Assembly: GCA_905236385.1 (NCBI GenBank)
Contig: CAJOOY010000005.1
Coordinates: 1-35,757, forward strand
DNA: 35,757 bases
Source of the DNA: an uncultured Spirochaetia bacterium
GTDB lineage: Bacteria; Spirochaetota; Spirochaetia; Sphaerochaetales; Sphaerochaetaceae
Direction: 5' to 3'
This document shows, in pieces, positions 25,088 through 35,757 of the stretch. A program made the translations under genes and the position numbers. Within the stretch, counting starts at the first letter, position 1. Each line of letters begins with the position of its first letter. The notes under the pieces were generated by a model that saw nothing but the letters and a program-made list of their open reading frames with translations, was not told the origin of the DNA and searched no databases.

Positions 25088-27040
25088 ATGATTAAATACG
25101 CTAAGGTCCTTGTTCCGGTTCCACTGAAAACTGACTTTCTCTACAGTTTTGATGATGAAAAGCTTCAAATCTGCCCTGGAATCCGAGTTATGGTTCCCTT
25201 TGGACGGATGAAGAAGAAAGGTTATGTAATAGAAGTCCTTGAAGAGAAGCCTGAGTGTAATTTTGAAATCAGAGAAATACTTAAGGCTACCGACAAAGAG
25301 CCTCTCTTTGGAGAAAACGAGTATAACCTGGCCCTCTGGATGGAGAAGTTCTACTTCTCTAATAGGGGTGAGATCCTGGATACCATGATCCCAGGAGGTA
25401 AGAAAGATATATCTTTCGGGGCACTGGACACAGAAATGGGAGAGGCCAGGGAGTCTGTCTATCTTACAGATGAGCAGCAGAAGGCAGTTGAGGAGATAAC
25501 TGAGTCAGACTCCTCCCTCTTCTACCTCTACGGAATAACCGGTAGTGGTAAAACAGAAGTGTTTTTAAAGTGCGTGGAGAAGGTGGTTTCTGAAGGCGGA
25601 CAAGTTATCTATCTTGTTCCAGAGATTACACTTACGCATCAGTTAGCTCAGCAGGTAATTAAGAGGTTTAAAGGAAATGTAGCCATTCTTCACTCAGGAC
25701 TTACCGAGTCTCAGAGGATCATGCAGTGGAGAAAGATAAAGAGAGGAGAAGTGAGTTTTGTAATAGGAGCAAGAAGTGCTGTCTTTGCTCCATTTGAAAA
25801 CCTGAAGATGATAATAATAGATGAAGAGCACGAGAATTCCTACAAGAGTTCGAATGCTCCTCGCTACCACGCCCGTCAGGTGGCTCAAAAGCGCTTAAGT
25901 GCTACAGGTGGAAAACTTGTTCTAGGCAGTGCTACCCCTAGCCTTGAGTCCTGGCTTCTTATGGAAAAAGGGAAGATGAAGCGCCTAAATCTTACTAAGC
26001 GTGTAGGAGGGGGAACTCTGCCCCATGTTCAGGTAGTAGATATGAGTAAGGAAAACGGTCTGATCAGTACAGTTCTTCAGAAAGAAATGCACAGAACACT
26101 CTCAGACGGAAAGCAGGTTATTCTCTTTCTGAACAGGCGTGGCTACTCCTACTACTACCACTGTAATAACTGCGGATATGAATTAAAGTGCCCACACTGT
26201 GATGTGGCCATGACCTACCATAAAAACAAGGATGAGATGGTCTGTCACTATTGCGGACACAGAGAAAAACTCAAGCATGTGTGTCCGAATTGTGGTAGTG
26301 TTAACGTCTTGTATTCCGGAGTTGGTACAGAATTTGTTGAAAATGAGATAAAAAGGCTTTTTCCTTCCCACACATGTGCCAGACTTGATACAGATGTAGT
26401 TTCCAAAGACAGAAAGACCATAGAAAAGACTTTAACTGCTTTTGGTTCTGGAGAAATCCAGATACTTCTTGGCACTCAGATGGTTGCTAAGGGGTTAAAC
26501 TTTCCAAATGTAAGACTGGTTGGAATAATCCTGGCCGACAGTGGGCTTCTCATGCCGGACTTCAGAGCTAGTGAGAGAACTTTTGATTTACTTGTGCAGG
26601 TTAGTGGCAGAAGTGGCAGGTCTGATGAAAGCGGGAAGGTAATAATCCAAACCCGCATGCCTGAAAATGACACTATAAGATTAGCCTCTTCTTCTAAGGT
26701 TGAAGAGTTTTCTAAGATTGAATTAAATATCAGGTCTCAGCTCTCCTTCCCACCATACTCAAGACTGATTAATACTGTTTTCAGATCCAAAGATAGGATG
26801 AAGGCTTTTAAGGCTGCTGAAGAGATTGCAAAAAGGCTCAGAAATATAGGCGGCGACTATGAAGTGTTCGGTGCACAGGAGTGCCCGATTGAGAAGGTGA
26901 GGGAGCAGTACAGATTCCAGGTTATCCTCAAATCCACTGATATGAATGGAATGATAAATGCACTCTCTGTGGCTCTTAACAGTTTCAGTCCTTCTTCAGT
27001 TATAGTTGAAGTGGATACGGACCCGCTTGAGATGCTTTGA
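25088..27040 (+). CDS. priA: Primosomal protein N' (PriA helicase)
   Basis: A 650-residue superfamily 2 helicase. Walker A GITGSGKTE (149-157), IIDEEHENSYKS (DEEH box), GSATPSLES, and a zinc-binding insert with CNNCGYELKCPHC and CHYCGHREKLKHVCPNCG, eight cysteines forming two zinc sites. HFLNRRGYS-like LFLNRRGYSYY and LLGTQMVAKGLNFPNV complete the helicase motifs. It restarts collapsed replication forks. It is shorter than E. coli PriA (732 aa), mainly in the N-terminal 3'-DNA-binding part, though the KYAKVLVPVPL opening is present. It starts three bases after the UDG stop. Confidence 0.95.
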   Translation: MIKYAKVLVPVPLKTDFLYSFDDEKLQICPGIRVMVPFGRMKKKGYVIEVLEEKPECNFEIREILKATDKEPLFGENEYNLALWMEKFYFSNRGEILDTMIPGGKKDISFGALDTEMGEARESVYLTDEQQKAVEEITESDSSLFYLYGITGSGKTEVFLKCVEKVVSEGGQVIYLVPEITLTHQLAQQVIKRFKGNVAILHSGLTESQRIMQWRKIKRGEVSFVIGARSAVFAPFENLKMIIIDEEHENSYKSSNAPRYHARQVAQKRLSATGGKLVLGSATPSLESWLLMEKGKMKRLNLTKRVGGGTLPHVQVVDMSKENGLISTVLQKEMHRTLSDGKQVILFLNRRGYSYYYHCNNCGYELKCPHCDVAMTYHKNKDEMVCHYCGHREKLKHVCPNCGSVNVLYSGVGTEFVENEIKRLFPSHTCARLDTDVVSKDRKTIEKTLTAFGSGEIQILLGTQMVAKGLNFPNVRLVGIILADSGLLMPDFRASERTFDLLVQVSGRSGRSDESGKVIIQTRMPENDTIRLASSSKVEEFSKIELNIRSQLSFPPYSRLINTVFRSKDRMKAFKAAEEIAKRLRNIGGDYEVFGAQECPIEKVREQYRFQVILKSTDMNGMINALSVALNSFSPSSVIVEVDTDPLEML

Positions 27041-33071: not shown

Positions 33072-33111
33072 ACAGAAAGAAAAAGGCCTCCCGGTTTTTC
33101 CGAAAGGCCTT
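33072..33111 (-). terminator. Rho-independent terminator of the InlB-repeat gene
   Basis: Stem AAGGCCT (33083-33089) with AGGCCTT (33105-33111), extended by CGG/CCG around a five-base loop. On the minus strand it is followed by a T-rich tract (complement of 33072-33084). It separates the InlB-repeat unit from radC. Confidence 0.8.
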
Positions 33112-33127
33112 CTCTTAATCTGATTGA

Positions 33128-34922
33128 TTATGTTGAAGGAGATATCTTCATGTATTTATATCTGGTGTTTGTATCAGTTTTTTCTTTTGCATCAGCAGAA
33201 GATGTACCACCAACTAGCTTCATTCCTGAATCAATTATCAGAGTTCCGTGTGATGAACTACCGTTTCCTGCTCCGATTCCGGTACCGGCAACAGCAAAAT
33301 ACGTACTAGCCGAGCCTCCAGTTGCAGTTACTGTTCCGCCGTTGATAGTAACTGTTCCGCCAGCACCGTAAACACCTCCGCCGATTCCGGCAGCATTTAC
33401 TCCACCTGTTGCAGTTACAGTTCCATCATTGATGATGACAGTTCCGCCGATTATTCCATCATAAACACCGCCGATTCCGGCCATAAGACTAGAACCAGTA
33501 GCAATCAGAGAACCCTTACCATTGATTGTAAGTGAGTTAGTACCTGTAACTGTAATTCCACTAGAAGCTGTAAGGGTCTTGTCTTTCGGAAGAATGAGAG
33601 TAACGCTTCCTGTGACAGTGATACGATCCGAGATGGGCACATCGGCGGACATTGAATAGACATTTCCATTAGTCCAACTGGTCTTTGAAAGTGTTGTGGT
33701 AGCCAAATCAATTGCCCACTGGGCATACAGGTCAAGGTTCGCAGTCAGCGTGACCTTCTGCTCGTCGGAATACGCAGTACCGGTTCCGTCTTTAGCAGTG
33801 TTCCAACCAATGAATACATAATTATCGATGGAGAATGTGTTCTTGGTCAGAGCCGTCTCTGTATTGAACTGAATCAGCTGTGTTGTCGTGGATTCAGGAG
33901 TGACTCCGTCATTCTTGTGGAATGTAACGGTTGCTTCTTCAGACCACTGGGCATACAGTGTTGCCGTTGCTCCGTCCGTTGTGGTGAGGTTGCTTACGCT
34001 TGCTCCGTCTGCATAAGAAGTTCCCTGTCCGTCGTCGCTGGTGTTCCATCCTGTAAATGAGTGGCTTTCCCACGAGTATGCATTGGCAGTGAGGTTCTGT
34101 GCCTCAGCATATTTGAAACTCTGGTTTGCCATTGTTCCTGTAGCTTCGTCGCTGTTCTTGTTGAATTCAACGGAATAGGAGATGGGCTCGGCGTTGGCCG
34201 TGTAGGCAATGTTCTGTGTCCCCATTTCGAAGCTGTATGCCTTTGTCGTTGAAACATCGGCTCCACCTGTTGTCTGGGTCCATTTATATCCATCAGACAT
34301 TGTGGCATCGAGGCTGACGGTAGCTCCCGGTGCATATGAACCGGCGCCTGTTACTTCACTGATTCCTGTTCCATTAGTTAAAGAAACATTGGAGTTGCTA
34401 GTCCAGATTGCGTACAATACCAAATTGGACTCAAGAGTTACAGTTGCACCGTCTGCATACTCGCTTGATTGGGCATCAGGATCAGTGTTCCAGTGTGCAA
34501 AATAGAATCCACTTTTCTCGAATGTATTTGTATCCAAAGCTGTTGCCACACCTTTTCCGACTTTCTGAGTTTTGGTTTCCGGAGTTTCTGAACCATCGTT
34601 GGCATTGAAGGTAATTGTCAGTTCTTCAATCCACTGGGCATACAGGGTAGTATTGCCTTCAAACTTTACTTCAGCCTCATCTGAGTAAGCCGTTCCGCTT
34701 CCGTCCTTGGCAGTATTCCAGTTTGAGAAGACGTAGCCATCTCTTGTGAAGGTATTAGGATTCAACTCTCCTCCGGAAGTGCTCATTTTCTGTGGCTCCA
34801 TCTTTCCCTGTCCGCCGTTGGCATCAAAGGCCGAGCATATCCGCAAACACATCACCGTTACACGCAGCGAATATACCAAGGATGATAACTGTCAAAAGGA
34901 TGGAAATAATTGATTTCTTCAT
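33128..34922 (-). pseudogene. InlB-repeat (Listeria-Bacteroides repeat) lipoprotein, frameshifted after the signal peptide
   Basis: ATG 34922, five bases after AGAGGAG, encodes a lipoprotein signal peptide with lipobox FAAC (Cys21), but the frame stops at 34824-34826. The remaining 570 or so residues continue in another frame that has only a TTG to start with. That part holds four InlB-type units, each with a strand, GWNT or HWNT, an AYSDGA-type turn and LYAQW or LYAIW at the end, with a divergent insert between units 2 and 3. It ends in a Gly/Thr-rich region with repeated GTVTINGGTVTATGG, probably a beta-helix. It would be a surface adhesin-like protein. One indel between about 34830 and 34860 explains everything; a sequencing error is an alternative. 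Confidence 0.75.
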
Positions 34923-34933
34923 GTTGACTCCTC

Positions 34934-35470
34934 TCAGAACTCAAAACTTGCACCCATCAGGGGAAGGATTCTGTAGTTTACATAGTTGATTGCATCTTTC
35001 TGTGAAAAGCCGAATGTGCCTTCACATCCAATGTGGATGCTGTCAGTGATTGCAAGAGATGCATTGAGACCGGACTTGAGAGTAACAGTCTCAGATACCT
35101 TACCATTGTAGAACAGAGTGTCTGCTGCTACATCTGCGTTTACAGAACAGGCAAGTTTGTCACTGAGATTAAGCTTGTAACCAACACCTGCAAAGGCAAG
35201 AAGGTTTGTGAATGCAGGCTTTCCGTCTCTCATAAGGAATGTGTTCCAGCCAAGACCTGCTTCTGCAAAGAAACCTTTGGAGAGCTTTCTCTGATAAGTT
35301 GCTTCAAAACCGATTCCATATCTGGAATAGACAGCATCCTGTCCTTCGGCTGAAGAAGTTGAGATCTGGAATCCATAAGGGATTACAGAAGCCTTAATAG
35401 AATTGTCGGCTGCAAAGGCTGCACTAAGGCAGAGCAGGGCAACCAAAACCATAATTACTGATTTCTTCAA
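34934..35470 (-). CDS. Outer-membrane beta-barrel-like protein (178 aa)
   Basis: TTG start at 35470 gives a complete signal peptide (MKKSVIMVLVALLCLSAAFA, cleavage before ADN); the next Met at 35452 would lose the basic N-region. The mature protein has spaced strands (YGIGFEATYQRKLS, FFAEAGLGWNTF, LLAFAGVGYKLNL, SHIG-type IHIGCEGTFGFS) and ends in Phe (LMGASFEF), the usual barrel C-terminal signal for BAM insertion. Eleven bases separate it from the InlB-repeat gene, so the two form one unit. Its promoter uses a -35 that lies within an IS-like end. Confidence 0.7.
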   Translation of the reverse strand: MKKSVIMVLVALLCLSAAFAADNSIKASVIPYGFQISTSSAEGQDAVYSRYGIGFEATYQRKLSKGFFAEAGLGWNTFLMRDGKPAFTNLLAFAGVGYKLNLSDKLACSVNADVAADTLFYNGKVSETVTLKSGLNASLAITDSIHIGCEGTFGFSQKDAINYVNYRILPLMGASFEF

Positions 35471-35514
35471 GGTAGTGCTCTTTTAAGTAAATTCTTTACG
35501 AAATTTATTATGGA

Positions 35515-35543
35515 ATTATATTGAGGGCGATATTCTTGTGCAA
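35515..35543 (-). promoter_or_regulatory. Hybrid promoter of the 178-aa barrel gene
   Basis: On the minus strand TTGCAC (35538-35543), 17 bases, TATAAT (35515-35520). The -35 falls inside the IS-like terminus that begins at 35537, while the -10 lies in chromosomal DNA. The predicted leader is about 38 bases. Confidence 0.55.
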
Positions 35544-35562
35544 CGACACCAAAAGTTGGACA
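35537..35562 (+). mobile_element. Insertion-sequence-like terminus
   Basis: TGTGCAACGACACC followed by AAAAGTTGGACA has the TG...outer end and the CCAAAAGTTGGACA inner part that I associate with IS3-family (IS150 group) terminal inverted repeats. The outer TG lies to the left, so the element would extend to the right. No orfA follows at the expected place, so it is probably a truncated or solo end. Confidence 0.4.
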
Positions 35563-35577
35563 GATTATTAGTTTTTA

Positions 35578-35627
35578 GACATCATTACTACGCACTCGGA
35601 GTGCCACGAGGTAGTAGAAATGATGTC
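35578..35627. repeat. Long imperfect hairpin with nested small hairpin
   Basis: GACATCATT (35578-35586) pairs perfectly with AATGATGTC (35619-35627). Inside, CTAC pairs with GTAG, and GCACTC-G-GAGTGC (35592-35604) forms a nested hairpin. It lies between the IS-like end and the direct repeats. There is no T tract, so it is not a terminator. Confidence 0.6.
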
Positions 35628-35639
35628 ATAATACAACAA

Positions 35640-35699
35640 GTCCGTATGCGGGTAAAAGTCAAAGATTTCCGTCCGTATGTGGGTAAAAGTCAAACATTT
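35640..35699. repeat. Two 29-bp direct repeats, IS21-like end candidate
   Basis: Copies at 35640-35668 and 35671-35699 share 27 of 29 bases (cores GTCCGTATG and GGGTAAAAGTCAAA), spaced 31 bases start to start. Closely spaced multiple terminal repeats of this style are a known feature of IS21-family ends. The stretch 35471-35733 contains no gene that I can support. Confidence 0.5.
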
Positions 35700-35733
35700 T
35701 TATTTTTTGTGTAATAGGCACCTTGTGCAAAAA

Positions 35734-35757
35734 ATGTTAACCGTAAGAATGCGATGC
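35734..35757 (+). CDS. Possible start of a transposase-type gene, cut by the window edge
   Basis: ATG 35734 opens a frame reading MLTVRMRC to the last base. Position just inside the repeated ends would suit an IstA-type transposase, but eight codons cannot show this, and no good ribosome binding site is seen. Confidence 0.15.

Follow-up and report, generated by a model that had tools for sequence, protein, structure and literature searches.

The locus and its reading frames

The DNA analysed here, referred to as the window, is a stretch of 35,757 nucleotides and is the complete contig C5. The draft genome to which it belongs totals 1,398,974 bases on 92 contigs, with a completeness of 96.19%. 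Towards the end of the window two genes lie one behind the other on the reverse strand. The first, at 34934..35470 (−), encodes an OMP-like protein of 178 aa with a signal peptide recognizable by eye; its frame (35470-34934) is itself open and starts with TTG. Use of TTG rather than ATG is the apparent start of several genes of this family (34934-35470, L036, L037, L045 and L051). Upstream of the OMP-like gene is a sigma-70-like promoter match (TGCACA, 16 nt, TATAAT; 35515..35542, reverse strand), scored 10/12 by a consensus scan only; the same kind of scan found four sites of this sort within 35400-35757, where shuffled sequence averages 1.2. A 31-bp unit in ∼2 copies lies close to the contig end, at 35640-35699, and no further copy of it was found in the same genome with up to two mismatches allowed.

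The stop codon of the OMP-like gene is separated by 11 nt from the ATG of a lipoprotein leader at 34922. The leader ORF (34824..34922, −) has the Shine-Dalgarno sequence AGGAG at 34928..34932 (−), the ribosome site and start together being TGAGAGGAGTCAAC-ATG; it begins with MKK, carries a lipobox with its cysteine (GIFAAC, by eye), and ends after 32 codons in CTT TGA. The second ORF, 34879-33128, has 583 codons, is +1 relative to the leader frame, and encodes an InlB/List-Bact-repeat body with a beta-helix repeat (33128..34828, −), as delimited by the ORF, domain searches and a codon-usage score. An intrinsic-terminator-like hairpin of 15 pairs and a loop of 5 lies 3′ of the body at 33080..33114 (−); this one hairpin was found where shuffled sequence gave a mean of 0.3.

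The frame break between leader and InlB body is confirmed. The codon-usage score, for which 14 window genes (6479 codons) served as training set and which was applied in steps of 12 codons, placed the leader frame top in every step from codon 1 through the step at 34859, with scores that are low in absolute terms and a small margin at 34859, and placed the +1 frame top from 34850 onward. Together with the ORFs, this bears out the first-pass annotation, which had described a lipoprotein signal peptide with a perfect ribosome binding site that ends after 32 codons and an InlB-repeat body in a different frame. Its statement that the junction has no homopolymer or short tandem repeat was likewise reproduced: there is no homopolymer of at least 5 in 34780-34930, and the tandem repeat scan of 33100-35757 reported only 35640-35699, so none lies at the joint. 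Slip-strand phase variation at the joint, already judged unlikely for want of such a repeat, was rejected, since neither the break nor the promoter has a simple repeat. Stop/start coupling through the overlapping TGATG was also rejected, because its ATG, by eye, sits in the third frame.

The annotation had also held that the body lacks a proper start, and here the outcome is divided. The body is not in frame with the lipobox signal that would mark it as a bacterial lipoprotein, the leader stopping at 34824, and to that extent the claim stands. Internal starts do exist in the body frame, namely ATG at 34801 after CAGGGAAAG and TTG at 34765 after CCGGAGGAGAG, both Shine-Dalgarno-like strings; initiation at either would yield an N-terminally cut protein with no signal.

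The body matches PF09479 in four stretches (E 4.6e-37, 126.4 bits against a cut-off of 27) and TIGR02543 with 43.5 bits against a cut-off of 20.95, and also matches PF18998 and PF18889, a divergent InlB repeat and a beta-helix repeat. With PF09479 and TIGR02543 both above cut-off, its predicted product is an InlB/List-Bact repeat protein, with the first InlB domain at body residues 18-82 and a short internal repeat at 33716-33805. The word adhesin, used in the first-pass annotation, is a guess based on the type of repeat. Among four genomes of the genus searched with blastn, the closest pair is that at G003:C80 (73% identical, query 1-635 = 35470-34836), and the DNA similarity spans the OMP-like gene, the gap and the leader through codon 29. 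The first PF09479 match starts at body residue 18, that is at 34828, at profile position 5, whereas in the intact N-termini of two InlB relatives (L002 and L006) it starts at profile position 2, a shortfall in the window of about three positions. Seven bases separate the end of the leader homology (34836) from the start of the InlB match (34828). Since the two meet in this way, the break falls where two modules join, and the change of frame can be located to about 34829-34835. The joint is ∼920 bases from the contig end.

Relatives of the OMP-like gene, the leader and the body

The window OMP-like protein is 60-66% identical to OMP-like proteins at 4 other places. Against the NCBIfam TDE1717 beta-barrel family it gave a match below cut-off (E 0.0074, 16.2 bits versus 135), a Pfam search gave no match and PDB sequence searches gave nothing useful; a single-sequence fold (pLDDT 40.5) was too poor for use. 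The match below cut-off, taken with a class I lysyl-tRNA synthetase, suggests that the source is a spirochaete near Treponema. Matches to it were present in 13 of 139 genomes of the family at E ≤ 1e-5, and in 9/61 genomes of a wider sample at E ≤ 1e-3. Besides the window there are nine full-length OMPs of at least 44% identity, and all of them have a lipoprotein leader 11-17 nt downstream. This count leaves aside matches of at least 44% cut by contig ends (G064:C46, G066:C149, G066:C67 and G011:C53, the last followed by a lipoprotein of the small type) and two full-length OMPs at 43% and 40% (G064:C54), which stand in tandem with no lipoprotein directly after them. Judged by homology and by the 11 nt gap, the window OMP and leader belong to this family of OMP-like + lipoprotein pairs.

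The partner bodies of the nine OMPs are of 133-159 aa in seven cases and 305-309 aa in two, and none gave a PF09479 match. Bodies positive for PF09479 were found behind distant OMPs (18% identity for L002, 17% for L006, 30% for L060, 29% for L063 and 24% for L048/L008), and three other large partner lipoproteins (L053, L065 and L047) had no PF09479 match in the sequenced part examined. The nine close OMPs thus all have non-InlB partners, and those InlB bodies that were found behind an OMP stand behind distant ones, a distribution from which a body swap is suggested. The swap may have been out of frame from the outset, or broken later at the joint. The only candidate donor for the body in the same genome is at C15 and is 48% identical, so that none is close.

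Within this family, the OMP gene at G001:C116 (L039 659-1201), one of the nine, has one in-frame TAG while the frame of its partner lipoprotein is open. An intact orphan lipoprotein of the small partner type lies in the genome of the window (L073 1501-1917, G000:C44), 55 bases after a tRNA-Cys gene and with no OMP directly before it. The idea that the usual small partner lipoprotein of the window survives as a split remnant was rejected, the copy at C44 being an intact orphan instead; no leaderless partner remnant was found in the same genome, where all nine matches at E ≤ 10 start at profile position 1. In a search for sister strains, other genome contigs gave one weak Clostridiaceae match and viral contigs none. 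Titles and abstract openings in the literature showed no OMP + InlB-lipoprotein pair among the matches listed.

The body query was run against 61 genomes, and 31 other genomes had a match. We examined 30 InlB loci, comprising 29 best matches from these 31 genomes and the C15 locus of the same genome; many of the genomes behind them are drafts too. In 9/30 the InlB frame runs off the locus. A script found an in-frame signal and lipobox in 16 of the remaining 21, although it is loose, hydrophobicity alone having also passed the leaderless body of the window. Three more have a signal by eye (L017, L030, which is without a lipobox, and L034), and two (L021 and L033) have no in-frame signal. In L021 1380-1475 (G010:C29), where an InlB-repeat gene has its frame off, the signal-peptide stretch contains a run of eight C and a tandem duplication of 16 bp.

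Continuous InlB relatives are found at C15 of the same genome (L002, its 3′ end cut by the contig) and in G027 (L006). Like the window gene, these two lipoproteins have PF09479 and TIGR02543 repeats and a lipobox leader, and stand behind an OMP-like gene. Unlike the window gene, they are in one continuous frame, and their OMPs have only 18% and 17% identity with that of the window.

By ungapped count, the window leader has 17/31 residues in common with that of G003:C80 and 18/31 with that of G028:C8, compared with 7/31 and 10/31 for the InlB leaders of L002 and L006. For non-InlB leaders as a whole the count runs from 4 to 18 of 31, and for those besides the nearest two from 4 to 14. Because the InlB values of 7 and 10 fall within the non-InlB range, leader likeness does not separate cleanly by body type. 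In a profile search of its own genome the leader gave a match at positions 1-29 (E 3.7e-7). Its final residues, ADMLG, resemble the InlB linkers AEAFG (L002) and DDAFG (L006), a likeness from which the combination of leader and InlB body may be old and formerly in frame, rather than a swap. An out-of-frame body swap and an older in-frame fusion whose frame was later broken at the joint both fit.

Interpretation of the frame break

We consider it likely that the lipoprotein half of this OMP-like + lipoprotein pair is a real broken, loss-of-function allele. On the lineage of the window, an InlB body would have replaced the usual partner-lipoprotein body behind the OMP and leader, and the joint would have been out of frame from the start, or a small change at that point would have cost it its frame. 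Translation from the good ribosome site would then yield nothing beyond a lipopeptide precursor of 32 residues. Any synthesis of the body would have to begin at the internal starts, and the protein, having no signal, would be left in the cytoplasm; from its reading frame, the InlB body is probably not exported. That the 583 body codons contain no further stop would fit either a sufficiently recent break or a sufficiently useful body.

Inactivation and assembly error, the two options put forward by the first-pass annotation, are also the two leading ones here, the latter with a distinctly lower standing. The main rival is that the draft misrepresents the joint, through a mixed-strain consensus or a misjoin near the contig end, and that the real gene is continuous. 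We regard this as rather improbable, even though the genome is a draft of 92 contigs at 96.19% completeness, the contig ends ∼920 bases from the joint, and many apparent pseudogenes in public genomes are assembly errors (PMC11017572, whose authors state that metagenome assemblies were outside their assessment). Such an artefact would have had to arise at a place with neither a homopolymer nor a tandem repeat. When the DNA of 34600-35470 was searched against its own genome, no other place spanned the joint, the matches besides itself being C34 (the OMP part) and the internal repeat at 33716-33805, and the final 278 bases of the contig have no match elsewhere in the genome. The InlB domain match is, moreover, short at its start relative to intact relatives, so that a one-base slip alone would be insufficient. 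The window gene resembles the frameshift pseudogenes described for GeneTack in having a single frame transition in a gene that is otherwise open; it differs from the pseudogene clusters of that work in that the break is at a module joint and no orthologue was found to cluster (PMC3711429).

That the joint is instead a recoding gate seems to us very unlikely. Here a programmed +1 frameshift of the RF2 type, a slip on CTT TGA, would join the lipoprotein anchor to the InlB body and give a low level of full-length lipoprotein. The leader does end in CTT TGA in phase, with the body at +1, as in the prfB frameshift. The genome's own prfB has TGG AGG GGA CTT TGA CCC at codons 20-25 (L085 1467-1550, G000:C6), an in-frame CTT TGA C behind GGAGGGGA that forms an RF2-type +1 site, and the genome thus seems to use this mechanism. 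Of 24 distinct InlB-like domain starts in the loci examined (found by pattern, whichever the repeat), none has CTTTGA at the same place. The RF2 signal is described as CTT TGA C preceded by a stimulator of the Shine-Dalgarno type (PMC3711429). Unlike prfB, the window site is GCTCGGC CTT TGA T, with T after TGA, no Shine-Dalgarno-like stimulator upstream and no conservation seen; lacking both the stimulator and the following C, it is a poor candidate for recoding. The CTT TGA string is not rare, as it is the ordinary end of 1/25 listed window genes (25088-27040), and its TTTGA is accounted for by the TTT GAT codons with which the domain begins. The first InlB domain of a shifted product would remain short. 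The same break was seen in no relative, and no orthologue with the window combination of leader and body was seen among loci from the 139 (OMP) and 61 (body) genomes searched. Were a slip on CTT TGA nonetheless to occur with no usual stimulator, surface display of the InlB protein would be low, tied to the supply of release factor, and higher when release factor 2 is scarce.

Slighter still, in our view, is the chance that leader and body each function as a gene in its own right, the leader giving a short lipopeptide and the body an InlB-repeat protein that starts internally and is cytoplasmic. The ATG at 34801 and the TTG at 34765 follow the Shine-Dalgarno-like strings given above (CAGGGAAAG and CCGGAGGAGAG), but both starts are within the first InlB domain (residues 18-82) and the strings themselves encode domain residues. 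An export signal is present in 19/21 InlB relatives with a visible start, three of these by eye, which also speaks against a cytoplasmic protein.

Poly-G/C tracts upstream of related pairs

If the lipoprotein half is a loss-of-function allele, or if it is misassembled, this single gene is of little weight. The pairs to which it belongs, with a conserved front, differing bodies and, in some, poly-G/C tracts, may suggest how such little-known bacteria vary their surface, and the break would mark the joint where bodies may be exchanged. The tpr genes of T. pallidum are phase-variable treponeme outer-membrane genes with poly-G tracts. Like these, the window has a surface gene that is off frame, and some related pairs have an upstream poly-G/C tract; unlike them, the window has no tract in the gene or upstream of the pair, the longest C/G run within 200 nt upstream being 3.

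C/G runs of 8-10 lie within 200 nt upstream of 4/26 other OMP loci (L058, L053, L060 and L002), the gene start being approximate for L040, L059, L063 and L002, and the remaining 22/26 have no such run. Their coordinates are 591-599 in L002 (C15), 2071-2080 in L053 (C54), 1458-1467 in L058 and 1938-1945 in L060. In the 268,021 bases of loci, overlaps included, there are six distinct C/G runs of at least 7, the other two being in L021 (in the signal stretch) and L017. In L058 a promoter-like site has the G10 run within its spacer of 18 nt, and the run of L053 lies, by eye, between TTGACT and TATACT, which are 19 nt apart; the promoter scan of L053, limited to spacers of 16-18 nt, reported none. 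The position of these upstream tracts suggests that some pairs have phase-variable promoters, a type of mechanism already known.

The whole genome of the window has G/C runs of at least 9 at three places: ahead of the C15 pair, ahead of the C54 pair and ahead of a gene on C67. The C67 gene (L090 783-1499) encodes a protein with a signal peptide by eye, and the nine-G run one base ahead of the ATG may be a ribosome site that varies.
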